Source of the DNA: a virus
IMG/VR virus record: IMGVR_UViG_3300037264_004085
Location: 1 to 31,167 of that record
Direction: 5' to 3' (one strand)
DNA length: 31,167 bases
Numbering within the stretch: position 1 is the stretch's first letter; each line of letters begins with the position of its first letter. The notes beneath the pieces were generated by a model. That model was given only the letters and a program-made list of their open reading frames with translations. It was not told the origin of the DNA and did no database searches. Below are positions 6,498 through 29,712 of the stretch, piece by piece. The translations under genes and the position numbers were made by a program.

Positions 6498-7040
6498 ATG
6501 CGCCCAGTGACCCTTCTCCTCGTCGCCTTCAACGTCCTCGCCTACCTCGTAGAGCTCGGGGGCGGGGGCCTGGCCTTCTGCCAGGCGTACGGGCTCGTCC
6601 CAGCTCGAGGGCTCGAGGGGCTCCTGTCCCACACCCTCCTCCACGACCCCTCCGCCCCCCTTCACCTCGTCGGGAACATGGTCTTCCTGGCCGTCTTCGG
6701 AGCCGTGGTCGAGGGCGCCTTGGGGGGCCCCCTCTTCTTGGCCCTGTACGCGCTCGCCGGGGCCTCCGGGGGCCTCCTCCACGTCCTCGTGGACCCGAGT
6801 TCGGCCCTCCCCCTCGTGGGCGCCTCCGGGGCCGTCTTCGGGGTCCTAGCCGTGGCGGCAGCCATCCACCCCCGCCTGCTGGGGTTCGCCCTCGCCTTCG
6901 GGGGGGTTGAGGTCTGGCACGCCATCGCCGGGGGTGGGGGGTCGGTGTCGTTCGGGTGCCACCTTGGGGGCCTCGCCGCCGGGGTGGCCGTCGCGGGGCT
7001 CCTTCGGGCGGCCGGCAGCGAAGCCATGGAGGCCGCATGA
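6498..7040 (+). CDS. rhomboid family intramembrane serine protease
   Basis: A 180-residue membrane protein with the rhomboid signature complete. The first transmembrane segment is at 3-20; LLHDPSAPLHLVGNMVFL provides the L-H-N motif with His56 and oxyanion-hole Asn60; LVGASGAVFGV holds the nucleophile Ser110 in G-x-S-G; and SFGCHLGGLAAG holds the catalytic His155 on the last helix with its GxxxG packing motif. Length fits the compact six-helix core of bacterial rhomboids. Rhomboids cleave other membrane proteins within the lipid bilayer. ATG 6498 has no strong ribosome binding site; TGCTAGGCT (6474-6482) upstream could be an extended -10. It is coupled to the next gene by ATGA. A host membrane target is inference. 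Confidence 0.88.
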   Translation: MRPVTLLLVAFNVLAYLVELGGGGLAFCQAYGLVPARGLEGLLSHTLLHDPSAPLHLVGNMVFLAVFGAVVEGALGGPLFLALYALAGASGGLLHVLVDPSSALPLVGASGAVFGVLAVAAAIHPRLLGFALAFGGVEVWHAIAGGGGSVSFGCHLGGLAAGVAVAGLLRAAGSEAMEAA

Positions 7041-8194: not shown

Positions 8195-8976
8195 CGAACG
8201 GCAACTGCCAGCGCTGCAACCTGCCACTCGTCGTGCTCCACGATGCCGCCGAGGCCGCCTGCTTCCGCTGCGACATCCTCCCGGCCAAGCGACGAGGCGC
8301 CGTCCAGCGCCGAGCGCTCGGCCGCGTCGCCGCAGGCGTGGATCTCGACAAGGCCCTGGCCGCCTACCGGAAGCTCCCGCCCTTCGCCGGGAACCTCGGC
8401 AAGATCCGCCTGGAGGTCGCGCACCGCATGGCGCGCGGCACGCGCGGCACCGCCTGGACGGTCCAGCGCCGTATCAGGGTCGCGGTAGGCCCCGACGCGA
8501 CACCCGAGCGCGTGCTTGAGGTGCTCGTCCACGAGATGTGTCACCTCGCGGTGCCCCGCGACACGCACCACGGGGAGCGGTTCCGACTCGTATTCCGCCG
8601 AGCGTGCCGCGAACTCTGGGGGATCGATCTCCCCCTCGACCCGCCCGCGCGCCAGGGATGCGTGGCCTACGGGATGGGGGACATCGCGACGGATCACCTC
8701 AAGAAGAAGATCGCCAGCGGGGAGGTCGAACTCTTCCCGCCGACCGCGGCCCCACCGAAGCCGACGCGATCCGAGCGCACGACGGCGCTCGTCGAGAAGC
8801 GCGCGAAGCACGCCGCCCAGATGCTCGCCCGCGCTGAGAAGCGGGCACGAGTCGCCCAGAGGACGCTCGCGAAGTGGAAGCAGAAGGTGGGCTACTACGA
8901 GCGCCAAGCCGCGCGCAAAACTGGGAGGCGACCAGCTCGCGGCGAAGGTTCTGGAGGACCGCGCAGAGTGCTCTAG
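8191..8976 (+). CDS. SprT-like zinc metallopeptidase-domain protein
   Basis: A 261-residue protein with ATGA coupling to the previous gene. The N-terminal CQRC (6-9) and CFRC (24-27) make a possible zinc ribbon. VLVHEMCHLAVPRDTHHGERF (residues 112-131) holds the HExxH metal site His114/Glu115/His118 with the third ligand His127 in H-G-x-x-F, the SprT/SPRTN arrangement. The C-terminus is Lys/Arg-rich and coiled. SprT-like proteins in cells degrade DNA-crosslinked proteins; phage versions are common and uncharacterised. It ends at 8974-8976 within a CTAG shared with the convergent stop. Confidence 0.8.
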   Translation: MTNGNCQRCNLPLVVLHDAAEAACFRCDILPAKRRGAVQRRALGRVAAGVDLDKALAAYRKLPPFAGNLGKIRLEVAHRMARGTRGTAWTVQRRIRVAVGPDATPERVLEVLVHEMCHLAVPRDTHHGERFRLVFRRACRELWGIDLPLDPPARQGCVAYGMGDIATDHLKKKIASGEVELFPPTAAPPKPTRSERTTALVEKRAKHAAQMLARAEKRARVAQRTLAKWKQKVGYYERQAARKTGRRPARGEGSGGPRRVL

Positions 8977-9440
8977 CCGCGCGACATGACGAGAGCGTCG
9001 ATGTATCGATCGCCTCGCTCGATCGCCAACGCCACGCGATGGTGCCCGTCGTGGACGTACCAGAACTCTTCACCGACCTCCGGGTAGTGCCCGTCGAGGA
9101 AGGGGTACTTCTCCTCCGGGTAGTCCACCTCTTCCACCTCGTGCGGCCCGTCCACGATGATCGGCGGCAGCGTGTAACCTGAGTCCTTCAACTGCGCCAG
9201 CTCGTCGATCCGCTCCTGACTGATCGGGTTGATGAAAGGCGAAGCGATCTGGCTAACTGGAACGCGCGTTCGCTCGAAGTCACGTGCGTAGGCGGGGATG
9301 CCGCCGTAGTCCTCGTCCCACTCGACGGGCTCGAAGAACCACGCAGGTTTCAGCGGCGAGCGGCGTCTCCGCCTACGGTTCGCCGCTTCCCGCCGCTCGA
9401 GTGTAAGCGGCTTCCTCGGGCGGTAGACGACGACTTTCAC
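8973..9440 (-). CDS. ParB/Srx-like domain protein
   Basis: A protein of 155 residues from GTG 9440; a longer frame would need an unlikely TTG at 9467. The N-terminus is basic (YRPRKPLTLERREAANRRRR). TRVPVSQIASPFINPISQER and LPPIIVDG lead to YVHDGHHRVALAIERGDRYI, the ParB/sulfiredoxin-like core DGHHR. An acidic insertion (EVEEVDYPEEKYPFLDG) separates the strand from the motif. It is a single-gene minus-strand unit between the SprT-like gene and the tmRNA. No ribosome binding site is visible. Confidence 0.7.
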   Translation of the reverse strand: MKVVVYRPRKPLTLERREAANRRRRRRSPLKPAWFFEPVEWDEDYGGIPAYARDFERTRVPVSQIASPFINPISQERIDELAQLKDSGYTLPPIIVDGPHEVEEVDYPEEKYPFLDGHYPEVGEEFWYVHDGHHRVALAIERGDRYIDALVMSRG

Positions 9441-9508
9441 CCAACGACTATACCTGACCCCCCACAAGGCGCGCGATAACCCTGGCCGACATGCTCGGCG
9501 AGCGGATC

Positions 9509-9553: not shown

Positions 9554-9925
9554 GGGCTTGATCGGCTTCGACGTGGGATGAAAGGACGGTCTGCGCGCAA
9601 GGGGCAGCCCCACCTCAACGGGGCACGTTAGCTGCGAACGACAACGCGCTCGCTCACGACCGCATCGCGGCCTGAGCCATCGCCCCGGGAAGGCGTCCGA
9701 GTACCTGGGGCGGTGTGAACCAACACGGACCGAATCCGCGCAGGCGCGAGCCCTGGACGCGGTGGATGACCCCGCAAGGGGAACGCTCGACGGACACGCC
9801 CGAATCCCCACGTCACGGGGCGGGCAAGCCCGCCTGGGGCCGGCTCACGAGCCAACCAGGCTACGCGCGTGAACGAGGATCGGCTGGAAGTCTCGCGGAC
9901 CCGGGTTCGATTCCCGGCAGGTCCA
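9554..9925 (+). ncRNA. ssrA: transfer-messenger RNA (tmRNA)
   Basis: Both ends of a one-piece tmRNA are present. The 5' end GGGCTTG (9554-9560) pairs with CAGGTCC (9918-9924) as the acceptor stem, allowing two G-U pairs. It continues GATCGGCTTCGACGTGGG, the conserved 5' block. Near the 3' end CCGGGTTCGATTCCCGG (9901-9917) is a perfect T arm. The CCA tail is not fully encoded (A-CC-G). The tag frame starts after TAGCT with GCG at 9634 and encodes ANDNALAHDRIAA, ending at TGA 9673-9675; AND and the terminal AA are typical of tags recognised by ClpXP-type proteases. tmRNA rescues stalled ribosomes with SmpB, which is not seen in this window. Both flanks carry phage-type genes. Confidence 0.93.
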
Positions 9926-9965
9926 CCGGAGTGCAAGCTCCGTGGTGGAGGGCCAAAAGCCCCCA

Positions 9966-10000
9966 GAAGCGGCTCGGTGACCCCGGGCCGCTTCGCTTTT
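9966..10000 (+). terminator. intrinsic terminator after tmRNA
   Basis: A 12-bp stem (9966-9977 with 9983-9994, GAAGCGG pairing CCGCTTC at the base) with a 5-nt loop, followed by GCTTTTC. It lies 41 nt after the tmRNA. Confidence 0.8.
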
Positions 10001-15851: not shown

Positions 15852-17111
15852 TTGGCTGAAGCTCCGTGGGACGCCTCTTTGCTCAAGAACAAGCAGGGGG
15901 CCTACTTGCCGTGCCTCCGCAACGCCTTCGCGATCCTCTGTCACCGTACTGAGTGGCGCAACGTCATCGCGTACGATGACTTCGCTGGCGTCATCGTGAA
16001 GATGAAGGAGCCGCCCTGGTTCAAGGACATCATCCCCGACGGACGCGAACAGAGCGCCGACTGGACGCAGAACGACTCTCGCAGAGCAGCGGACTGGATC
16101 GCACGCGACTACAACTGCCCGATTCACACGAGCATCGTCGAGGAGGCGGTGCAGCTCGTCGCCGATCGCTGGCACGTCCATCCGGTGCGCGACTACTTGA
16201 ACGAGATCAAGTGGGACAAGAAGAAGCGGATCGACACGCTCCTCGTTCGAGCGGCGCACGCCGAGGACACGCCCTACGTGCGCGCGGTGACGAAGAACTT
16301 CTTCCTGTCGGCCGTCGCCCGGATCTTCCGGCCCGGGGAGAAGGTCGACACGATGCTGATCCTCGAAGGCCCGCAGAACGTCGGCAAGAGCACGCTCTTC
16401 CGCGCTCTCGCGAGCGACACTTGGTTCCTCGACACGCTGTTCACGCCCGGCACCAAGGACGCCTACCAGTCTCTCCGACGGAGATGGATCATCGAGTGGA
16501 GCGAACTCGACGCCCTGAACCGCGTCGAGTTGTCGCGGGTGAAGGCGTTCGTATCCTCGACGACGGACAGCTACCGCCCGAGCTACGGGAAGTCGACGAT
16601 CGACTTTCCGCGGCAGTGCGTGTTCGTCGGGACGGTCAACCCGAGTGAGGGCTACCTCAACGATCCGACCGGCTCGCGGCGCTTCTGGCCGGTGACCGTT
16701 GGCAGAGTGGACCTCAAGCTGGTGCGCGCAGAGCGCGATCAGCTCTGGGCCGAGGCCGTGGCGCGCTACCGCAAGGACGAGGTCTGGCACCTCGACGACC
16801 AGAAGCTCATCAAGGCGGCAGCGGAGGAGGCCGACAAGCGCCGGGAGCGCGAGCCCTGGGAGAAGCACTTCCGCGACTGGCTCGCCGAGCACGAACGGTC
16901 GAAGAAGGGCGTCACGACGGAGGAGCTGCTCACGAAGGCCGTCGGGATGCGCAAGGACGTTCAAGATCGCTCGGCGCAGACGAAGGCGGGCAAGGCGCTC
17001 CGGGCCATCGGCTGGGATGTCGTGCAGCGAGGCCCAGACGACATTCGCCGGTACTTGCCCGGCAAAACGGCCCAAGCCTCTCGATCTACTCCCTCCAACC
17101 CTCCAACCTAG
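15852..17111 (+). CDS. VapE-like replicative helicase/ATPase
   Basis: A 419-residue protein starting at TTG 15852 behind AAGGAG. The core is a virulence-associated E family P-loop ATPase: Walker A EGPQNVGKST (172-181), Walker B-like RWIIEWSELDAL (211-222) with two acidic residues, sensor CVFVGTVNPSEGY (256-268) and the arginine-finger segment DPTGSRRFWPV (271-281). The family is related to superfamily 3 helicases and is paired with primases in phages and satellites. Here the AEP-like primase lies in the divergent block, so the two probably start or drive DNA replication. The C-terminus resembles a small winged-helix (KGVTTEELLTKAVGM). Confidence 0.85.
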   Translation: MAEAPWDASLLKNKQGAYLPCLRNAFAILCHRTEWRNVIAYDDFAGVIVKMKEPPWFKDIIPDGREQSADWTQNDSRRAADWIARDYNCPIHTSIVEEAVQLVADRWHVHPVRDYLNEIKWDKKKRIDTLLVRAAHAEDTPYVRAVTKNFFLSAVARIFRPGEKVDTMLILEGPQNVGKSTLFRALASDTWFLDTLFTPGTKDAYQSLRRRWIIEWSELDALNRVELSRVKAFVSSTTDSYRPSYGKSTIDFPRQCVFVGTVNPSEGYLNDPTGSRRFWPVTVGRVDLKLVRAERDQLWAEAVARYRKDEVWHLDDQKLIKAAAEEADKRREREPWEKHFRDWLAEHERSKKGVTTEELLTKAVGMRKDVQDRSAQTKAGKALRAIGWDVVQRGPDDIRRYLPGKTAQASRSTPSNPPT

Positions 17112-17413: not shown

Positions 17414-17486
17414 CCCGTTGCGGCTCCGGCGTCCGGGGGGGTTCCTCGGGCGCCGGGAGCCGCGCCGCCTCAAGAGGGAGAAACCT

Positions 17487-18683
17487 GTGAACAACCTGCA
17501 ACCGTCCGCGTCACGTACCGCGCTGCTCCTGGCCTGCCCCAGGCCCTTCGACCCCAGCTTCGAGATCGAGCCGAGCCCCGGCGGAGAGGCCGCTCGCTAC
17601 GGCAGCGCCTTCCACCAAGTGCTCGCAGCTTGCCTCGGCACACCCGAGAAGAAGCCTCTTGAGCGCTCCGCAAGCTACGCCCGCGCAGTCGACGCGGCGG
17701 CCAAGAAGTACGATGTGCGCGCCGTTGGCGCCGAACTCGCGGGCCACGCGAAGAGCAGCGCGAGGGTGCTCCGCAACTGGCTCAGCCGCGAGAAGCTCGA
17801 GGTCGCCGAGATCGAGCGCTCCTACGCGGTCGCTCCGCGCGCAGACGGCGGCTGGCTCGTGCGTGAGATCCCACCACACGACGCGGATCACCGCTACGCG
17901 ATCAAGCTCGGCGAGCTGCCCGGCACCGTCGACCTCATCGCACGGAACAAGAACCGCACCCGAGCCGTCGTCCTCGACCACAAGACGGGCGGCGTCGACC
18001 CTGGGTTCGCTCAGCCTGCGAAGCTGGCGCAGATGCGGACGCTCGGGCTAATCGGGATGCCGGGTGCGCCTGCGAAGAGCAAGGGCTTCAAGCGCGACGT
18101 CGAGGTCGCGATCTTCCACGCCGACCGGCGAGGGCTGCCGATCGTGTACGCGGAGCCGTACAAGATCCAAGATCAGTTCCGCCACGCCGCGGATCTGCAC
18201 GCGGCGTTCGCCCGCGTCGGTTCGGGCTTCATGCGCCCCGGCTCCCACTGCACGTACTGTCCTGCCCGTGAGGGCTGCCCGGCGCGCACCGTGGACCTAC
18301 TCGCCACAAGCACGGCCGCGCTCGTCGAGGGCGCGAACCGGCTCGCCGTCGAGCCCATCGTCTCAGGCCCGCTCTCGCCAGGCGCCAACACGAGCCTCTC
18401 CGTCGAGGAGCGGGCTGGGGCGCTCTACGATCTGCTCAAGCGCTTCCGTGTGCTCGATGAGGCCGGCTCCGCCGAGATCAAACGTCTCGTACAGGAGGGC
18501 AAGATCATCGAGACCCGCGACGGGCGAGTGCTCGCGGTCCGCGAGGAGAGGTTCGAGACGCTCTCGAAGAAGAGCGTCATCGAGGCGCTCGGGAAGGTCG
18601 CAGGCGAGCGGATGCTCAAGCGTCTTCGTGCGAAGGGCGCGATCAAGGAAGCGATGCGCGAGAAGCTCGTCGCGGAGAAGTGA
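17487..18683 (+). CDS. Cas4/RecB-like PD-(D/E)XK nuclease
   Basis: A 398-residue protein from GTG 17487 with GGGAG nine bases upstream. The RecB-type nuclease core is visible: RYGSAFHQ with His43, LPGTVDLIA with Asp149, and AVVLDHKTG with Asp164 and Lys166. Cys17 near the N-terminus and HCTYCPAREGC (Cys255, Cys258, Cys264) after the core match the four-cysteine iron-sulfur arrangement of Cas4-like nucleases. In phages such enzymes accompany single-strand annealing or Sak4-type ATPases and SSB-like proteins, as here (20623 and 21610). A 5' to 3' exonuclease role in recombination is likely. Confidence 0.82.
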   Translation: MNNLQPSASRTALLLACPRPFDPSFEIEPSPGGEAARYGSAFHQVLAACLGTPEKKPLERSASYARAVDAAAKKYDVRAVGAELAGHAKSSARVLRNWLSREKLEVAEIERSYAVAPRADGGWLVREIPPHDADHRYAIKLGELPGTVDLIARNKNRTRAVVLDHKTGGVDPGFAQPAKLAQMRTLGLIGMPGAPAKSKGFKRDVEVAIFHADRRGLPIVYAEPYKIQDQFRHAADLHAAFARVGSGFMRPGSHCTYCPAREGCPARTVDLLATSTAALVEGANRLAVEPIVSGPLSPGANTSLSVEERAGALYDLLKRFRVLDEAGSAEIKRLVQEGKIIETRDGRVLAVREERFETLSKKSVIEALGKVAGERMLKRLRAKGAIKEAMREKLVAEK

Positions 18684-19929: not shown

Positions 19930-20324
19930 TCCACGTCTACTTCGCTCACCGGCTCGGGCACGACCCCGTCCTCCGACTCGCGAACATCGAAGCCGCCGGC
20001 AGGCTCATGTGCGAGCTGGCCGACCGGCTCCCCATCGTGCCTGCCGCCTCGTGGCTCACGCTCGCGCGCTACTGGGACGAGACGAAGCGCGAGAAGGGCC
20101 TCACGATCGACTTCGCCCAGATCACGAGGTGCGACGAACTCTGGCACGTCGGACCAGAGCTGTCGGCGGGCATGAAGCTCGAGGCCGCGCACGCGGCGAA
20201 GATGGACGTGGCCGTCCGAGACCTCGTGGGGCGCTCGGCGGATGAGATCGTCGAGCGGTGGCCCCACTTCACCCCACTCCCGCCCCCTTCCAATGGGCGG
20301 GCTCCGGCCTCGAACAGATCGTAA
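19926..20324 (+). CDS. DUF4406/nucleoside deoxyribosyltransferase-like protein
   Basis: A 132-residue protein from GTG 19926 (GTGA overlap). HVYFAHRLGHDPVLRLANIE opens with the strand and N-I-x-A helix of nucleoside 2-deoxyribosyltransferase-like proteins; ITRCDELWHVGPELSAGMKL then gives the CD-L----S-G---E motif. The family hydrolyses or exchanges the base of deoxynucleosides or deoxynucleotides, fitting the nucleotide-metabolism theme beside DUF3310 and ThyX. The last residues (PLPPPSNGRAPAS) are encoded by a dispersed hairpin element, so the natural C-terminus was probably altered by its arrival. Confidence 0.72.
   Translation: MIHVYFAHRLGHDPVLRLANIEAAGRLMCELADRLPIVPAASWLTLARYWDETKREKGLTIDFAQITRCDELWHVGPELSAGMKLEAAHAAKMDVAVRDLVGRSADEIVERWPHFTPLPPPSNGRAPASNRS
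20279..20301 (+). repeat. dispersed hairpin element, copy 3
   Basis: CGCCCCCTTCCAATGGGCG at 20281-20299; here the stem extends to 7 bp. It forms the 3' end of the DUF4406-like gene, and the tract continues with GGGTGAAGTGG on the minus strand, as in copy 5. Confidence 0.85.
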
Positions 20325-20475
20325 CCGCAGCGGAAAACACGGGCTATCGTCTCTGCGCGTATCACGTCGCAGCAGCGGTGAAGCTCGTTCGCGATTCGTC
20401 TTGCTCGACAAGTGGCGCGTGGGCCGCTATGTTTGCTCTCACGAGCGGACAGTCGTCCCCCGACCATCGCTCCCT

Positions 20476-20515
20476 GAACCGCAGCCCTTTTCGACGGGGG
20501 CTGCGGTTCTCTTTT
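20476..20515 (+). terminator. intrinsic terminator
   Basis: A 12-bp stem (20476-20487 with 20498-20509, GAACCGCAGCCC base-paired to its complement) with a 10-nt loop, followed by TCTTTTG. It closes the 15852-20324 transcription unit. Nothing gene-like is seen at 20325-20475. Confidence 0.8.
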
Positions 20516-20519
20516 GTGC

Positions 20520-20548
20520 TTGCGCTAGTTGTAGCGCTCAGATAGGGT
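20520..20548 (+). promoter_or_regulatory. candidate promoter with internal operator
   Basis: TTGCGC (20520-20525) and TAGGGT (20543-20548) are 17 bp apart. GCGCTAGTTGTAGCGC (20522-20537) is a perfect 6-bp inverted repeat between them. It follows the terminator and would drive the block from 20623 on. Confidence 0.5.
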
Positions 20549-20622
20549 GTGCGTTCCTTAGCCCAACGTCGAAGCGTCGCCACTCGAAGGCAACGGCGGG
20601 CAAAGGAGACAGGGACGACAGC

Positions 20623-21375
20623 ATGCCGCAAGAAGCGAGCTCGCTTGAGCGCGAGCCGTACGATCGTGTCTTGATTCTGGGGCAGCCCCACATCGGGAAG
20701 AGCACCAGCATCGTTGCCAGCGCCGCCTCGGCGTTCGGCATGGGCTACGTGATCAACTGCGGCAAGAAGACTGGTCTACTCGACGCCGCCAGGCGCAACA
20801 CCGGCTTCCGGTGGGACACAGTCCGCGACGAAGCGCAGATGGAAGATGCGCTCAAGGAAGCGCGTCGAGGCTGCAAGGACGGCACCTACAAGTGGCTCGT
20901 CATCGACGACTTCAACTTCTACGCGAGCTGGCTGGAAGTAGCGCTCGAAGACCAGACACGCAACGCGAAGGGTGAAGCCGACGGCCGGCGGTTCTGGCGC
21001 GAGTACCGAAAGCGGCTGCTCAACATCGTGCTGCGCTCCTTCGACTTCAAGGCTCACCTCTACGTCGTCTCGCACTACATCGAGACCGGCGGCGGCCTCA
21101 TCGAAGGGCAGACCGAGAAGACTGGAGAAGGCGTCGCGCCTCTCTTCGGCGGCGCGGCGCGGAAGGAGATCCCGGGCGCCTTCGCTGACGTGGTGTTCAT
21201 GGGGCCCAGCTCCAAGGACAGCGCGAAGCGTAGCTTCTTCATCAACCCGGTCGGCGTGTACGGCCCGTCGTGCTTGTCCGTGGTCGGCACCCGCGAGATC
21301 GACGCCGACGTGGGGCTCCTGCACGAGGAGTTCAAGAAGGCCGGCAAGATCAAGCCCAACACGGTGAGGCGATGA
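20623..21375 (+). CDS. Sak4/RecA-like ATPase (AAA_24 type)
   Basis: A 250-residue protein. RVLILGQPHIGKSTSIV holds Walker A (20-28) and YKWLVIDDFNFYA holds Walker B with Asp95/Asp96. The order and size fit the short RecA-like phage ATPases known as Sak4 or AAA_24, which anneal single strands or assist recombination together with an SSB-like partner and an exonuclease. Both are close by (SSB-like at 21610, Cas4-like at 17487). ATG 20623 lies after AAAGGAGA at a rather long distance, with AGGGA nearer. It is the first gene after the promoter at 20520. Confidence 0.78.
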   Translation: MPQEASSLEREPYDRVLILGQPHIGKSTSIVASAASAFGMGYVINCGKKTGLLDAARRNTGFRWDTVRDEAQMEDALKEARRGCKDGTYKWLVIDDFNFYASWLEVALEDQTRNAKGEADGRRFWREYRKRLLNIVLRSFDFKAHLYVVSHYIETGGGLIEGQTEKTGEGVAPLFGGAARKEIPGAFADVVFMGPSSKDSAKRSFFINPVGVYGPSCLSVVGTREIDADVGLLHEEFKKAGKIKPNTVRR

Positions 21376-22434: not shown

Positions 22435-22587
22435 ATGATCGGCTATGGCGTTACGCTGATACCTGCTTCGTGGGCGTTCGGGGTTTGGCGCAAGCCGCAC
22501 AAGACGCTCTTCGCAATCGGACCCTTACGTTTCGTTCACTACCGTCTCTCGGGCGCGTGGAAACGTGCGCGTGTCGATTCGACCTGA
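22435..22587 (+). CDS. small hypothetical protein
   Basis: A 50-residue frame with AAAGGA upstream: MIGYGVTLIPASWAFGVWRK then PLRFVHYRLSGAWKRARVDS. It is aromatic and basic with a short hydrophobic N-terminus, but not long enough for a clear membrane helix. Not recognised; moderately supported by the ribosome binding site and spacing. Confidence 0.5.
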   Translation: MIGYGVTLIPASWAFGVWRKPHKTLFAIGPLRFVHYRLSGAWKRARVDST

Positions 22588-22592
22588 CCTGA

Positions 22593-22663
22593 CGGCTCGG
22601 CAGGCCCGGCAGGCACCCCCTGCACCAGCCCGAAGTGGGTCGCTTGCCGGTCCTGCCGAGCCG
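22593..22663. repeat. long imperfect inverted repeat
   Basis: Arms 22593-22614 and 22642-22663 match at 20 of 22 positions (CGGCTCGGCAGG at the outer end is perfect), with 27 bp between. It fills the gap ahead of the first PP-loop gene. No T tract follows; it may be a regulatory hairpin or an attenuator. Confidence 0.75.
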
Positions 22664-22687
22664 CCGAGCGCCGGAAAGACAAACACG

Positions 22688-23467
22688 ATGACGCGGGAAA
22701 AGAGGCTCGTGTGCTGGTGGTCGGCGGGGATCGCCTCGTCGGTCGCGGCGGCCGTCGCATTGAAAACGATCGCGGCCTCTGAGCGCGTCGTGGCCTACTG
22801 CGACACGAGCAGCAACGAGCACCCCGACAACGCCCGCTTCCTCGTCGAGTGCGAGCGATGGTACGAGCAACCCATCGTCAAGCTCAGCTCGACCGTCTAC
22901 CGCGATACCTGGGACGTGTACGAAAAGACTGGCTGGCTGGTCGGGGTGAACGGTGCGCGCTGCACGACCGAGCTGAAGAAACTCGTTCGGCGCGGGTTCG
23001 AGCGCGAAGGCGACGTGCAGGTCTTCGGGTTCACAGCGGACGAGCCGCAACGCGCCGATCGCTTCCGGGCGAACAACCCGGAGATCGAGGCCCGCTTCCC
23101 GCTCATCGAGCAGGGAATGAAGCACGCCGATTGCGCGGCGCTCCTGCGCGAGGTCGAGATCGAGATCCCGATGATGTACCGCCTGGGCTACCGCAACAAC
23201 AACTGCCTCGGGTGCGTGAAGGGCGGTGCGGGGTACTGGAACCGGATCCGAAAGGACTTCCCGAGCGTGTTCCGCCGGATGGCGAAGCTCGAACGGAAGA
23301 TGGACGTTGCGATCCTGAAGAAGACGAGCGGCGGGCGGCGGCTCAGGGTCTTCCTCGACGAGCTGGATCCGACTTCGGGCAGGTACGAAGCGGAGCCGGA
23401 GGTGGAGTGCGGCCTCGCGTGCGGCATCACCCTCGACAAGATCGAAGCCGAGGAGCCGAGCACATGA
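22688..23467 (+). CDS. PAPS-reductase-like PP-loop protein A
   Basis: A 259-residue protein, first of three PP-loop genes. The adenylating loop is CWWSAGIASSVAAA (Ser12 to Ser18). ARCTTELKK (Cys92) corresponds to the C-T/S-x-x-x-K substrate segment, and NNNCLGCVKGG supplies Cys173 and Cys176; CGLACG near the C-terminus adds two more Cys. NEHPDNARFLVECERWYEQP also fits the phage phosphoadenosine-phosphosulfate-reductase-like type. Such enzymes activate a substrate with ATP before sulfur or amine transfer. The actual substrate is unknown; DndC in DNA phosphorothioation is a distant relative by family only. Confidence 0.78.
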   Translation: MTREKRLVCWWSAGIASSVAAAVALKTIAASERVVAYCDTSSNEHPDNARFLVECERWYEQPIVKLSSTVYRDTWDVYEKTGWLVGVNGARCTTELKKLVRRGFEREGDVQVFGFTADEPQRADRFRANNPEIEARFPLIEQGMKHADCAALLREVEIEIPMMYRLGYRNNNCLGCVKGGAGYWNRIRKDFPSVFRRMAKLERKMDVAILKKTSGGRRLRVFLDELDPTSGRYEAEPEVECGLACGITLDKIEAEEPST

Positions 23468-24279
23468 AGAAGAAGCCGGCGAAGAAGGGGCAATCCCCGC
23501 TCGTCGTGAACTTCGGCGGCGGGGTGAACTCGACTGCGCTCCTCATCGGGCTCCACGAGCGCGGCGAGCGCCCCGATCTCATCCTCTTCGCCGACACGGG
23601 CGACGAGAAGCCCGGCACCTACCGGCACATCTGGGAGATCCAGCCCTGGCTTGAGAGCGTCGGGTTCCCATCGCTTATCGTCCTCCGCCGCCAGATCACG
23701 CGCGGCAAGAACAAGGGGAAAGTGACGACGCTCGAGGAGGAGTGCTTCGCCAACGTCACGCTCCCGAGCCGCGTGTTCGGTCGAAAGGGCGGCTGCTCTG
23801 GGAAGTGGAAGCGCCAGGTTGTGGACGGGTTCCTGAAACGGCACTACCGCCTGCACTTTGCTGCGGGTGGTCGCGTGCGGCGCGCGCTTGGGATCGACTT
23901 CGGGGAACTCAGCCGCCTCCACTTCTCGGTGTCCGAGTTCTTCGACTGGGAGTACCCGCTCGTAGACTGGCGATGGACGCGCACGGAGTGCACCGAGGCC
24001 ATCGGGCGCGCTGGGCTCCAGTCTCCAGGCAAGAGCGCGTGCTTCCACTGCCCGGCGTCCACGAAGAAGGATGTAGTCTGGCTCATGGAAACACACCCGG
24101 ACCTCTACGAACGCGCCGTCAAGATGGAGCGCATGGCGAAGCCCGGCCTCCGAACGAAGGTCGGCCTCGGCGGCCGGTGGACGTGGGAGGAGGTCGGCGC
24201 AGCGCACCGACTGCGGCTCCCGATCGCGGCAGACGATCCGCACGTCGCGTGCGATCCAAGGGACGGGTGCTTCTCGTGA
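23464..24279 (+). CDS. PAPS-reductase-like PP-loop protein B
   Basis: A 271-residue protein coupled to the first by ATGA. The PP-loop is VVNFGGGVNSTALL (14-27), followed by LILFADTGDEKPGTY with the acidic residues after strand two. GGCSGKWKRQ (Cys111) is the C-S-x-x-x-K segment and KSACFHCPAS (Cys193, Cys196) the CxxC pair. The N-terminus is basic (MKKKPAKKGQ). It is more distant from protein A than protein C is in the loop pattern, suggesting three specialised paralogues rather than a recent duplication. Confidence 0.78.
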   Translation: MKKKPAKKGQSPLVVNFGGGVNSTALLIGLHERGERPDLILFADTGDEKPGTYRHIWEIQPWLESVGFPSLIVLRRQITRGKNKGKVTTLEEECFANVTLPSRVFGRKGGCSGKWKRQVVDGFLKRHYRLHFAAGGRVRRALGIDFGELSRLHFSVSEFFDWEYPLVDWRWTRTECTEAIGRAGLQSPGKSACFHCPASTKKDVVWLMETHPDLYERAVKMERMAKPGLRTKVGLGGRWTWEEVGAAHRLRLPIAADDPHVACDPRDGCFS

Positions 24280-25106
24280 CCGCAACCGAAGAGCGCACCC
24301 CCACGCTCCGCATCATCTCGCTCGGCGCGGGCGTCCAGTCCACCGTGCTCGCCCTCATGGCCTCAAGGGGCACGCTGCGCCCAATGCCGGACGCCGCCAT
24401 CTTCGCGGACACTCAGGCCGAGCCGGCCGCCGTGTACGCGCACCTCGACTGGCTTGAGTCGAAGCTGAACTTCCCGGTCTACCGCGTCACGCAGGGCTCG
24501 CTCACCAACGACCTCATCCTCGGGACGAAGGGCGAGTGGGCGAGCACCCCGCCGCTTTTCACGCTCTCGAGCGAGGGTGGGCGCGGGATGCTTCGGCGCC
24601 AGTGCACCGAGGACTACAAGATCGCGCCCATCAAGCGGAAGATCCGCGAGCTGCTGGGCGCGCCCAGGACAGGCAAAGTGCGCCAGGGCCTCGTCGAGGA
24701 GTGGATCGGGATCTCAACCGACGAGGCGAGCCGGATGAAGCCGTCGAGAGACAACTGGATCTGCCACCGCTGGCCGCTCATCGATCTCGGGATGACACGC
24801 GCGGACTGCCTCGCGTGGGCCGAGAAGCACGGCTACCCGAGGCCGCCGCGCTCGGCGTGCACGTTCTGCCCGTATCACTCAGACGAGGAGTGGCGCTCAG
24901 TGAAGGAGAACCCGCAGGAGTGGGCGGACGTGATCAAGCTGGACCGCCTGATCCGCAGCGGCGTGAAGGGGACGCACCCGGGCACCCAGCTCTTCTTGCA
25001 CGCCTCGCGGCGACCCATCGAGGAAGCCAGCTTCGACAAGGGCCTCGACGGGAAGCGCGAGGCCAACCAGTTCGAGAACGAGTGCGAAGGGATGTGCGGC
25101 CTGTAA
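24276..25106 (+). CDS. PAPS-reductase-like PP-loop protein C
   Basis: A 276-residue protein from GTG 24276 (GTGA overlap). The PP-loop is ISLGAGVQSTVLALMA (14-29), then AIFADTQAEPAAVY. LRRQCTEDYKIAPIKR (Cys109) matches the C-T-x-x-Y-K segment of classical PAPS reductases, and RSACTFCPYHSDEEW supplies Cys194 and Cys197. EWIGISTDEASRM and WICHRWPLIDLGMTRADCL complete the common phage version of the family. With A and B it forms a three-gene set, one transcript by spacing, placed directly ahead of thyX. Confidence 0.8.
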   Translation: MTATEERTPTLRIISLGAGVQSTVLALMASRGTLRPMPDAAIFADTQAEPAAVYAHLDWLESKLNFPVYRVTQGSLTNDLILGTKGEWASTPPLFTLSSEGGRGMLRRQCTEDYKIAPIKRKIRELLGAPRTGKVRQGLVEEWIGISTDEASRMKPSRDNWICHRWPLIDLGMTRADCLAWAEKHGYPRPPRSACTFCPYHSDEEWRSVKENPQEWADVIKLDRLIRSGVKGTHPGTQLFLHASRRPIEEASFDKGLDGKREANQFENECEGMCGL

Positions 25107-25136: not shown

Positions 25137-25922
25137 ATGAACGAGATCAAAGTGCTAGACCACGGCTACGTGCGGCTCATCGAGTCGTGGGGCTCGGACC
25201 GCGCGATCATCGAGGCCGCACGCATGTCCACGCAGAAGGGCTTCCTTGGCTGGAGCGCCTCGTGCGAAGCGTGCCAGGGGAGCGGCTGCGTGAAGGACAC
25301 GGTGACGGACGCCTACTTCGACTGCCCGGCGTGCGACGGCACAGGCAACAAGCCGGGCGACGAGAAGCTCCTCCGTTTCCTCTGGGAGAAGCACCACACG
25401 ACGCCGTTCGAGTTCGGGGGCATGATCATCGAGGTCGCCGCGCCCATCTTCGTCTTCCGCGAGTGGCATCGGCACCGCACGCAATCGTTCAACGAGGCCA
25501 GCGCCCGCTACGCGCCGCTCCCAGACGTGAACTTCGCCCCGACCGTGGATCGGTGCACGCGCGTCTCCGCCACGAACAGGCAAGCCGGGGCTGCGGGCGG
25601 CTCGGGCGAGGTCACCGAGGAGGTCGCGCGGCTCTGGCTCGGCCGTCTCCTCGACACCTACGCCTACGCGGAGGAGACCTATCAGGAGGGCCTGGCCGCC
25701 GGCATCCCGAAGGAGATCGCCCGCGTCGTCCTTCCGGTCGGGAGGTACTCGAAGATGCGCGCCTCGGCGAACCTCCTCAACTGGCTGCGGTTCGAGCGCC
25801 TCCGCCTCGGCAAGGACGCTCAAGAGGAGATCCGCGAGTACGCCCAGGCGGTGCACATGATCCTCACGGGGCTCTTCCCGAGAACGCTCGCGCTGTTCGA
25901 CGAGGAGCGCGCAAGCAAGTGA
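25137..25922 (+). CDS. thyX: flavin-dependent thymidylate synthase with zinc insert
   Basis: A 261-residue ThyX, which makes dTMP from dUMP using FAD and methylene-tetrahydrofolate. The ThyX signature RHR-x7-S is intact (Arg112 to Ser122 in RHRTQSFNEASARY), with HHTTPFEF and KMRASANLLNWLRFERLR as further family segments. Unusually, residues 43-70 hold CEACQGSGC and CPACDGTG, two DnaJ-type CxxCxGxG half-sites, between the first helix and the GDEKLLRFLWEKHH segment. This looks like an inserted zinc knuckle. ATG 25137 follows AAAGGA. Its place next to PP-loop genes and DNA polymerase fits deoxynucleotide supply. Confidence 0.92.
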   Translation: MNEIKVLDHGYVRLIESWGSDRAIIEAARMSTQKGFLGWSASCEACQGSGCVKDTVTDAYFDCPACDGTGNKPGDEKLLRFLWEKHHTTPFEFGGMIIEVAAPIFVFREWHRHRTQSFNEASARYAPLPDVNFAPTVDRCTRVSATNRQAGAAGGSGEVTEEVARLWLGRLLDTYAYAEETYQEGLAAGIPKEIARVVLPVGRYSKMRASANLLNWLRFERLRLGKDAQEEIREYAQAVHMILTGLFPRTLALFDEERASK

Positions 25923-26519: not shown

Positions 26520-27124
26520 AGAAGCGCAAGAAGAGCAAGAAGCGCCTGTCTCTTTCGCGTGTGGAGGCGCGTGCGCGAGCAGATGGGGCGGCGCTGATGG
26601 ATCGTATCCTCGTCGGCTTGGATGTGATGAGCGATCCCGACGAGTTCGGCACGAATGTCGCGATGTACGTGCTGAACCCTGGCCTTCGCGGGGAAGAGTT
26701 GATGATCGGCGCTAGGCGCATCCATCCGGCGTTCATGCTGTTCGACGGCAAGCGTGACGCGCTGATGCGTCAACGCACCGGGATCGAAGGTGACGTGGTG
26801 CCGTTCTGGATGGGCCGTTTCACGGCGTTGACCGAAGACGATCTCTTGTTCGGCTGGATGACCGTTGACAGTCGCGGCGTGGTCGTCCGCGTCGTCGGAT
26901 TCGACTACTCGCTCATAGGTGAACTTCACGGCGACGACTTCGCCGAGTACATCGGTGGGCTACCGCGCGCGTTGCGGATCCCACGTATGCTGGTGTCCGA
27001 GTGCTTGAAGCTGGCGCTCGTTCGCGCCACCGAACGTGCGAACTGCGACTTTCACTTCGAGGACATGCAGGGCATCGACCCGGGACCGGGGCTCAGCTAC
27101 ACGAGCGCAGGCGGAGACGCATGA
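26504..27124 (+). CDS. hypothetical protein
   Basis: A 206-residue protein from GTG 26504 with GGAGGT directly upstream. A very basic start (VSKSVKKRKKSKKRLSLSRV) is followed by a mixed alpha/beta body (VAMYVLNPGLRGEELMIGAR; DLLFGWMTVDSRGVVVRVVG). No family is recognised. It is coupled by ATGA to the DNA polymerase gene, which hints at a replication-related role only by position. Confidence 0.62.
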   Translation: MSKSVKKRKKSKKRLSLSRVEARARADGAALMDRILVGLDVMSDPDEFGTNVAMYVLNPGLRGEELMIGARRIHPAFMLFDGKRDALMRQRTGIEGDVVPFWMGRFTALTEDDLLFGWMTVDSRGVVVRVVGFDYSLIGELHGDDFAEYIGGLPRALRIPRMLVSECLKLALVRATERANCDFHFEDMQGIDPGPGLSYTSAGGDA

Positions 27125-29712
27125 CGACGAGGCTGCCTCTCGTGGAAAGCTACAACCCGCGCAAGGCGGGTGCGCGCTGCGATCTGTGTCCGCTCAAGGG
27201 CAATACCGTCGTCCCGCCGAAAGCGTCGCCGCGCCCAGCGAAGCTCGTGTTCGTCGGCGAGGCGCCCGGCCGAAAGGAGGAGCTTGTCGGCCAGCCCTTC
27301 GTCGGGCAGACCGGCGCGTTCCTGCGCGGGCTCTGTCGTGAGGTCAACATCGACATCACCGAGGCCGCGCTCCAGAACGCCGCCCTCTGCCGTAGCAACA
27401 TCGACAAGGAGAACGACGAGGCGGCTATCTACTGCGCGCCTCGACTGCTCAAGGAGCTGGCCGCGCTCGACCCGTCGATCCCCATCGTCACGCTCGGGAA
27501 GGCGAGCACGCTCTCGGTGCTGGGGGTGCGCAGCATCATGCGCGCCCGCGGGTTCGTCTGGACCGCGCGGGAGATCGATCCGGCCCCTGCCCGAAACGCA
27601 GCGAAGAAGGCGAAGGATCGCGGCGCCCCGAAGTGGCCTGAACTCCAGCTCAAGGCGCAGGTAGCCGAGGGGCGCAGCAAGCTCGCCGGCCGCACCGTGC
27701 TCCCGACCGTACACCCTGCCTTCGTGTTGCGATCCGACACGTGGCTGCCGGTTCTCAAGGGCGACCTCGACCGCATCGCTCGCTGGGTGCGCGGGGATCT
27801 GACGCACGCCAAGCTCCTTGAGAACGGGCCGTACGTCGTCGTCTCGAAGGGCGCGGACATCCGTCGAGAGTTCAAGAAGCTGGCGCCCGTCATAAGCGTG
27901 GACATCGAGACCGGCCCGAGCCGGCCAGGCGGCCCCGACGGCGCCGATCCGAACAGGAATCGAATCCTCTGCGTCGGCGTCTCAGACGGCGACCACACGG
28001 TCGTCATCTGGCCGTGGCGAAAGGCGACCCACGCGCCGCTGCTGAACGCGCTCTTCAAGCGTGTGACGACAATCGGCATGCACAACGGGTACAACTTCGA
28101 TCAGATCAGTCTCGCGCGCGCGAACATCCCGTTCGCGCCCATCGAGGACAAGCTCGAAGACACGCTCATCGCGCACCACACGTTCGCGAGCCACATGCCC
28201 CAGCGCCTCGCCCACGTCGCGAGCGTCTTCGTGGACTCCGGGCCGTGGAAGGTCACGTTCAAACTGGGAACCGGCGGCGCGACTGAGAAGGGGCTCCCGC
28301 CCGAGAAGCTCAGCCCCGAAGAGCTGACGCGGTACAACGCGGCCGACGCCAGGATCCAGGCGCGCGTCTGGCTCGCCATGCAAACCGATCTCGAATCCGA
28401 GCGCATGGTCTACGAAGTCGACAAGGCTAACGCGCGGCTCTGCCGGGGCATGATCATCGGCGGCATCGGTGTCGATCTTGAACGTCGGGAGCAGCTTCGG
28501 GACGCGATCATTGAGAAGGAGGCCGCCCTTCTCGACCAGATGCGCAAGCTCCTTCGCCGAGCGAACTTCCACCCGATGCAGCTCTCCGAGGTGCGAAAGG
28601 CGCTCTTCACGATCCTCGGCGCGCCGCTTGAGGTGGCCGATCCGACCGACTCTGGGCTCCCCTCGACGAGCCAGCGCACCCTCGAACGCCTCAAGGAGAG
28701 CCCGACACGAGCCGGGCGGTTCGCCGATCTGCTCCTCCAGTGGCGCGGCGCTGTGAAGATCAAGAGCACGTATATTGACAGTCAGGTGCTTGACGCCCAC
28801 AGGAAGGGGGCGGGTGAAGTGGTGAGAACGCACTTCAACTGGCGGAGCTACGGCGCGGCCTCGGGGCGGTACTCGTGCCGGCTCCAGTCGTGCCCCAGGG
28901 CCGAGTACCTGAAAGACAAGAGCATCGTGCTCGAGACGAGGGTGCGCGAGCTCTACGTCGCGCGGCCCGGCTGCAAGCTCATCTACTTCGACCTCTCCCA
29001 GGCGGAGCTACGGTTCGCGGCTTATCTGTCCGGCGACAAGTCGTTCATCGCGGCCTGTGAGTCCGGTGACGTGCACACCGCCACCGCGAAGCTGCTCTTC
29101 CCAGCCGATGCCGAACTCATCGGGCGTGACCCGAAGGGCGCCGGCAAGCCCTTCCGCGATGTCGAGAAGAACTCGATCTTCGGGTTCTGCTACTACGCCG
29201 AGCCGGGCACGATCTTCGGGTTCGTGCGGTCGAAGGGGCTCCCGGTCGAGATGCGCGACGTGCTGCTCATGCACGACATGGTGCGCGCGAACTTTGCCGA
29301 CTACTTTCGGTACGTCGAGCGGAACAAGCGCTGGACCGATCAGCACGGCTACTTGCGCTGCACGCTCTCAGGCCGCATCTCGTGGCTCGGCTGGCACGCG
29401 GGTTACCCCGACGTCGCCAACCGCCCCATTCAAGGTGGCATCGCGAGCCTGATGAACGTGCGGCTCCCGGCCATCGCGCGCAAGCTCCCGTCCGGCGCGC
29501 GCGTCGTCGCTCAGATTCACGACGCGGCCATCATGGAAGTGCCTGACCGGCACGTCGAGCGTGTTCAACGGCTGGTGCAGCGGACGTGGGATGAGCCCAT
29601 CGTCATCCCCGCGAACGGCTACGAGACGAGCCTGCGGGTCGAGGATGGCGCGAGGAGCTTCGTGATGCCGATCGATCTCAAGATCGGGGAAAGGTGGAGT
29701 GACTTCGGATGA
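27121..29712 (+). CDS. DNA polymerase A with N-terminal uracil-DNA glycosylase-like domain
   Basis: An 863-residue fusion of SPO1 phage type. The first 230 residues are a family 4/5 UDG-like domain: Cys20 and Cys23 plus Cys90 and Cys105 (C-x14-C) for an iron-sulfur cluster, GEAPGRKEELVGQPFVG (46-62) and PTVHPAFVL (195-203). An exonuclease-like domain follows with VISVDIETG (Asp261, Glu263), MHNGYNFD (Asp327) and YNAADARIQ. The polymerase has motif A YFDLSQAELR (Asp624), motif B RDVEKNSIFGFCYYA (Lys683) and motif C QIHDAAIM (Asp801), where the usual HDE is HDA. Residues 558-564 are encoded by repeat copy 5, in a loop before the VVRTHFNW segment. ATGA overlap fixes the start. Confidence 0.92.
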   Translation: MTTRLPLVESYNPRKAGARCDLCPLKGNTVVPPKASPRPAKLVFVGEAPGRKEELVGQPFVGQTGAFLRGLCREVNIDITEAALQNAALCRSNIDKENDEAAIYCAPRLLKELAALDPSIPIVTLGKASTLSVLGVRSIMRARGFVWTAREIDPAPARNAAKKAKDRGAPKWPELQLKAQVAEGRSKLAGRTVLPTVHPAFVLRSDTWLPVLKGDLDRIARWVRGDLTHAKLLENGPYVVVSKGADIRREFKKLAPVISVDIETGPSRPGGPDGADPNRNRILCVGVSDGDHTVVIWPWRKATHAPLLNALFKRVTTIGMHNGYNFDQISLARANIPFAPIEDKLEDTLIAHHTFASHMPQRLAHVASVFVDSGPWKVTFKLGTGGATEKGLPPEKLSPEELTRYNAADARIQARVWLAMQTDLESERMVYEVDKANARLCRGMIIGGIGVDLERREQLRDAIIEKEAALLDQMRKLLRRANFHPMQLSEVRKALFTILGAPLEVADPTDSGLPSTSQRTLERLKESPTRAGRFADLLLQWRGAVKIKSTYIDSQVLDAHRKGAGEVVRTHFNWRSYGAASGRYSCRLQSCPRAEYLKDKSIVLETRVRELYVARPGCKLIYFDLSQAELRFAAYLSGDKSFIAACESGDVHTATAKLLFPADAELIGRDPKGAGKPFRDVEKNSIFGFCYYAEPGTIFGFVRSKGLPVEMRDVLLMHDMVRANFADYFRYVERNKRWTDQHGYLRCTLSGRISWLGWHAGYPDVANRPIQGGIASLMNVRLPAIARKLPSGARVVAQIHDAAIMEVPDRHVERVQRLVQRTWDEPIVIPANGYETSLRVEDGARSFVMPIDLKIGERWSDFG
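28794..28812 (+). repeat. dispersed hairpin element, copy 5
   Basis: CGCCCACAGGAAGGGGGCG, the same arm type as 12720-12738 and followed by GGGTGAAGTGG as beside copy 3. It lies in the DNA polymerase coding region and keeps the frame open. Confidence 0.82.

Follow-up and report, generated by a model that had tools for sequence, protein, structure and literature searches.

A phage-encoded one-piece tmRNA with its own tag, and sister genes sharing a hairpin over the mature 3' end

In bacteria, tmRNA releases ribosomes that have stalled and labels their unfinished proteins for degradation. Herein, we describe a complete one-piece tmRNA gene in a 31,167-base virus contig from IMG/VR, the whole of which was analysed and is called the window. 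Homologous tmRNAs were found in at least six further contigs of uncultivated phages using pattern scans and the Rfam model RF00023. The gene probably encodes a functional phage tmRNA that performs trans-translation during infection and adds a degradation tag specified by the phage. The gene, its fold, the tag frame and the terminator are read from the DNA itself, and we infer expression, the order of processing, charging, the use of SmpB and proteolysis.

Using ARAGORN, a one-piece tmRNA with the tag ANDNALAHDRIAA* was called at 9554-9927(+), and a match to RF00023 was obtained at 9554-9928 using Infernal and Rfam 15 (model positions 1-374 of 374, 56.8 bits, E=6e-20). This match is full-length, lies above the gathering score of 47, and is the only tmRNA match in the record, with a score that is modest in comparison with the 105-264 bits obtained in Pseudomonadota genomes. 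The sequence-only reading of this DNA had proposed a complete phage-borne tmRNA with a tag and had named ARAGORN and the Infernal tmRNA model as a check; both call the gene, the contig is viral and carries genes for phage replication, and sister homologues exist. The end point given in that reading, 9925, is exactly the discriminator base. The parts of the gene and its trailer are as follows.

9554..9925 (+): body of the one-piece tmRNA gene, from G1 at the 5' end to discriminator A73 (ARAGORN and RF00023)
9554..9560 (+): 5' strand of the acceptor stem, GGGCTTG, with G3 of the G3:U70 pair (sequence; homologous GGGGCCG in sister phages)
9601..9624 (+): PK1, the best H-type pseudoknot, 9601-9604/9613-9616 plus 9607-9611/9620-9624
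9634..9675 (+): tag reading frame, ANDNALAHDRIAA plus TGA (ARAGORN and sequence)
9678..9730 (+): PK2, a 12-bp stem 9678-9689/9704-9715 plus loop pairing 9695-9699/9726-9730
9901..9917 (+): T arm CCGGG-TTCGATT-CCCGG with a canonical T-loop (sequence; blastn matches to phage T arms)
9918..9928 (+): 3' strand of the acceptor stem, CAGGTCC, then discriminator A (9925) and CCG (sequence)
9922..9949 (+): hairpin covering the mature 3' end, TCCAC-CGGAG-loop-CTCCG-TG(bulge)-GTGGA (folding and RNAalifold)
9966..10000 (+): intrinsic terminator, 12-bp stem GAAGCGGCTCGG/CCGGGCCGCTTC, then GCTTTT

The acceptor stem, the T arm and the strong terminator, which had been described as readable, are all present in the window. 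The acceptor strands GGGCTTG/CAGGTCC form the alanine identity pair G3:U70, which is also present in four sisters, and are followed by discriminator A73. The bases after the discriminator are CCG, confirming the earlier remark that the CCA tail is not fully encoded; CCA must therefore be added enzymatically. The TAGCT resume context and the complete tag were likewise seen, with the resume codon GCG at 9634 directly after TAGCT, an open frame encoding ANDNALAHDRIAA, the stop codon TGA at 9673-9675, and the frame-setting A at -4. This A corresponds to A86 of Escherichia coli tmRNA, which mutagenesis has identified as the main frame determinant (PMC2481249). PK1 was matched in quality by none of 150 shuffles and shows compensatory changes in sisters G001 and G012; the same pseudoknot search did not recover PK1 in G017 and G022. 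PK2 was matched by one of 150 shuffles, and the same architecture was found in G017 and G022. Plausible PK3 and PK4 stems lie between 9731 and 9863. The sequence-only reading had staked its claim on a covariance match and on four foldable pseudoknots; the match, PK1 and PK2 were recovered, and PK3 and PK4 were judged by eye only. The terminator stem is kept in five phages with one compensatory pair, and copies lie directly behind each sister tmRNA; a simple terminator scan missed the terminator at 9966-10000, probably because its T-run rule is stricter. A sigma-70 scan returned no promoter match.

The sister tmRNAs carry related tags on the same frame. Using RF00023, five complete sister genes were scored at 50-79 bits, and a sixth, in G015, is cut by the contig end and was recognised from its 5' end and tag only. 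None of the six was called by ARAGORN. Their tags are listed below.

G001 (111 kb): ANDNAAIAA
G012 and G023: ANDNASRIAA
G017: ANDNAIVQPSIQKIAA
G022 (96 kb): ANDNAIDPSVRVAA
G015: ANDNANAVAA

Throughout the clade, the ANDNA start and the (I/V)AA end of the tag are constant, and the middle and the length vary (9-16 amino acids). That both ends are kept while the middle drifts points to selection on both ends. All sisters, like the window, have an intact resume codon, stop codon and A at -4. Given the spread of tags within the clade, the phage tag likely differs from the host tag in most of these phages. Relatives of the window polymerase were found at 63-85% identity in 20 viral contigs, and G001, G012, G015 and G017 share this polymerase; there the tmRNA lies 4-9 kb behind the polymerase gene, and in the window it lies approximately 17 kb before it. 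G022, assigned from its tmRNA only, is a putative member of the group. The presence of homologues across sister phage contigs indicates a gene common to these phages and not a single capture from a host. No tmRNA match was found in the large relatives G002 (86 kb) and G018 (84 kb), so that the gene is either dispensable or these two records are incomplete. The polymerase match is split in two pieces by approximately 125 bases in G002 and G003. Two further candidates, L070 and L071, proved to be chance pattern matches, and a search of viral contigs for the start of the window tag found nothing.

The T-loops of the sisters differ from that of the window. The window has the canonical TTCGATT, and four sisters have CTCGTAG, GTCGTTC, TTCGTAA and CTCGCTA, in all of which the T54-A58 pair is lost; an alternative pairing of positions 54 and 60 is possible in three of these four. 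Bacterial controls had a TTCRA loop in 23 of 23 cases and an encoded CCA in 23 of 23, in a search that did not strictly require the canonical loop, and these controls are all Pseudomonadota, which may not represent the phage host. The non-canonical loops, absent from the window, look like a second new feature of the clade, and the loss of T54-A58 could impair charging, EF-Tu binding or SmpB binding in those sisters. Altered T-loops are apparently a recurrent trait of unrelated phage tmRNAs. In two IMG/VR huge-phage contigs of 447 and 349 kb, tmRNAs at L015:49-402 and L024:841-1194 have the T-loop GGCGGTA; both were missed by ARAGORN and lie above the RF00023 cut-off. Another group of phage tmRNAs (L072, L073, L074 and L075) has the tag ANDNSYASAAIAA, likewise with an -IAA end; in the two that were checked, L072 and L074, CCA is not encoded, and in this group GGTGGACTC, complementary to the mature 3' end, stands behind the terminator. 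When ARAGORN is used on its own, phage tmRNAs whose T-loops are altered go undetected, and therefore surveys resting on it give lower bounds.

A distinctive element of the clade is the hairpin over the mature 3' end. The trailer of each tmRNA contains an invariant TGGTGGA approximately 16-20 bases past TCCAC, the end of the acceptor strand plus the start of CCA. RNAalifold, given no hint, paired TCCAC with GTGGA in five of five phages, with compensatory changes, and the inner stems vary yet stay paired (CGGAG/CTCCG, TCCCGC/GCGGGA, TCCTCCA/TGGAGGA, CCCGC/GCGGG and CGCCCC/GGGGCG). The window hairpin folds at -15.6 kcal/mol (z -3.9), and the z-scores in the five phages range from -2.4 to -4.6 against mononucleotide shuffles. 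By chance, TGGTGGA would be expected in 32 random bases at this GC content at 0.0017 per sequence, a figure to be read with the five sequences being related and not independent events. GTGGA was found within 60 bases downstream in none of 25 bacterial one-piece tmRNA genes, which were picked by a pattern demanding an encoded CCA and a TTCRA loop, and two of whose contigs end within a few bases. The trailer pairing takes up U70-C74 and is therefore in competition with acceptor pairs one to three, G3:U70 among them, which suggests that the hairpin might delay charging. At the level of titles and abstracts of open-licence papers, no description of such a hairpin was found for tmRNA, and this clade feature appears to be new. 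We tentatively raise a further possibility, to which we give appreciably less credence than to a functional phage tmRNA: the clade tmRNA might be a distinct form whose precursor hides its own aminoacyl-accepting end, so that charging and tagging are blocked until the trailer is removed, and, together with remodelled T-loops and fast-changing IAA/VAA tags, the phage would decide at what time stalled proteins of host or phage origin are marked and with what degron.

The window encodes phage replication genes at the following positions.

15852-17111: VapE-type helicase
17418-18683: PD-(D/E)XK exonuclease
20242-21375: Sak4-like protein
25137-25922: ThyX
27121-29712: UDG-DNA polymerase A fusion, with a uracil-DNA glycosylase domain

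Three adjacent ORFs at 22565-25106 resemble PP-loop (PAPS-reductase-like) enzymes by motif, the first having no Pfam match, and could be part of a DNA or RNA modification pathway. ParB-like proteins are encoded at 221-1822 (PHROG match) and at 8973-9467 (DGHHR motif only), the latter directly upstream of the tmRNA on the opposite strand. The ORF at 6498-7040 is rhomboid-protease-like, and a Rhomboid-family protein is also encoded by G001 and G022.

An SmpB gene was found in none of ten phage records, and the window record in particular lacks the smpB homologue that the sequence-only reading had suggested looking for; host SmpB is thus presumably used. The host was approached in several ways. 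Searches using blastn against phages and plasmids returned short pieces only, mostly T arms, and tblastn of the polymerase, VapE, ThyX and the integrases returned only distant relatives from mixed hosts. A search of 399 Pseudomonadota genomes for the 5'-plus-tag pattern found nothing. A GTDB scan for TAGTTGC...ANDN...(IAA) tags found 14 loci, all in Alpha- or Gammaproteobacteria as judged by record title and nearly all permuted tmRNAs, and therefore gave no candidate host, although hosts with TAGCTGC would escape that scan.

We propose the following course of events for trans-translation with a phage tag. The tmRNA would be transcribed as its own unit, ending at the conserved terminator, and the 3' end of the precursor would be held in the hairpin. 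Host nucleases would then remove the trailer, and the host CCA-adding enzyme would complete CCA. Host AlaRS would charge the tmRNA via G3:U70, and host SmpB and EF-Tu would bring it to stalled ribosomes, where the stalled peptide would gain Ala plus ANDNALAHDRIAA, the I-A-A end of which would lead it to host Clp-type proteolysis. In mycobacteriophage Wildcat, no lytic gene is expressed more highly than the tmRNA (PMC7474061), and the authors of the Melnitz study proposed that viral tmRNA helps to maintain the machinery taken over by the virus or marks proteins of the host for recycling (PMC9004378).

Other explanations of the same gene have to be weighed. The phage tmRNA might act as a decoy or inhibitor, occupying SmpB or stalled ribosomes or adding a poorly degraded tag and so blocking host trans-translation. 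Phage DS6A has a TLD-only form of tmRNA, and such a molecule inhibits tmRNA (PMC4131195); the sister T-loops are non-canonical, but that of the window is canonical, and the clade tags end in IAA or VAA instead of the common LAA, but these are conservative changes. Moreover, a decoy has no need of the mRNA-like domain, the open tag frame and the A at -4, which are kept in all sisters, or of the pseudoknots, which are kept in the sisters tested. Because the tag domain is kept, a decoy role is less likely, and we regard it as improbable. Still less probable, in our view, is a degenerate pseudogene or a chance match, to which we give very little weight. The covariance score is modest and the sister T-loops drift, as such a reading would have it; however, two independent programs, ARAGORN and the RF00023 search, agree, and compensatory changes in the pseudoknots, T stem, 3' hairpin and terminator, with tag frames intact in every member, argue against neutral decay.

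The sequence-only reading had itself offered the alternative that a host ssrA was captured, for instance as an integration site. The gene might be a captured ssrA, or an attP-like remnant at an ssrA integration site, and play no part in infection. Elements often integrate at ssrA (PMC11915505), G022 and G001 have a tyrosine integrase gene approximately 3 kb or less from the tmRNA, and a recombination site is one way to interpret the inverted repeat at the 3' end. However, the integrase follows the tmRNA in G001 and precedes it in G022, so that the two lie on opposite sides, no integrase was found in the 31-kb window record, and the surroundings of the integrases in sisters lacking a tmRNA yielded no T-arm fragment; an att site at the tmRNA was therefore set aside. 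In addition, at least seven phage contigs, the window among them, have homologues of the gene, the terminator is kept in the five where it is readable, and the sister 3' ends differ and their T-loops are not host-like, which makes them unsuited to matching a host attB. Use of the tmRNA as an integration site is thus disfavoured, and capture of a host ssrA appears distinctly unlikely, a little more so than the decoy role, which leaves a functional phage tmRNA as the preferred reading.

Phage tmRNAs are already known (PMC4131195, PMC9004378, PMC12656738), having been found in 402 of 18,146 genomes, or 2.3% (PMC9004378), yet they are hardly studied. The main search of a 2025 tmRNA database used ARAGORN and BLASTN-based hits only, covariance models having given many false positives (PMC11915505), and members like those described here could therefore be overlooked. 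Within the clade, a single conserved frame carries a natural range of tags, which makes the gain of a phage from its own degron testable, and the covarying 3'-end hairpin suggests that maturation includes a controlled step that, to our knowledge, is undescribed for tmRNA. In common with the bacterial one-piece ssrA (RF00023), the window gene has the G3:U70 acceptor, T arm, PK1, resume A at -4, ANDN-type tag, PK2 and terminator; the differences are that CCA is not encoded, the tag ends in I/V-A-A and the 3'-end hairpin is present, with non-canonical T-loops in four sisters. The TLD-only tmRNA of mycobacteriophage DS6A is likewise a phage RNA with the tRNA-like domain of tmRNA; it is without a tag domain, whereas the window gene keeps the tag frame, PK1 and PK2. 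Complete tmRNA genes are also present in the genomes of mycobacteriophages Bxz1 and Wildcat, Bacillus phage G, B. elkanii phages and OM43 phage Melnitz, the last in a two-piece form in contrast to the one-piece form of the window. Unlike these phages, the clade described here is an unrelated uncultivated group with a UDG-PolA polymerase, in which six sister tmRNAs are invisible to ARAGORN and the 3'-end hairpin is conserved.
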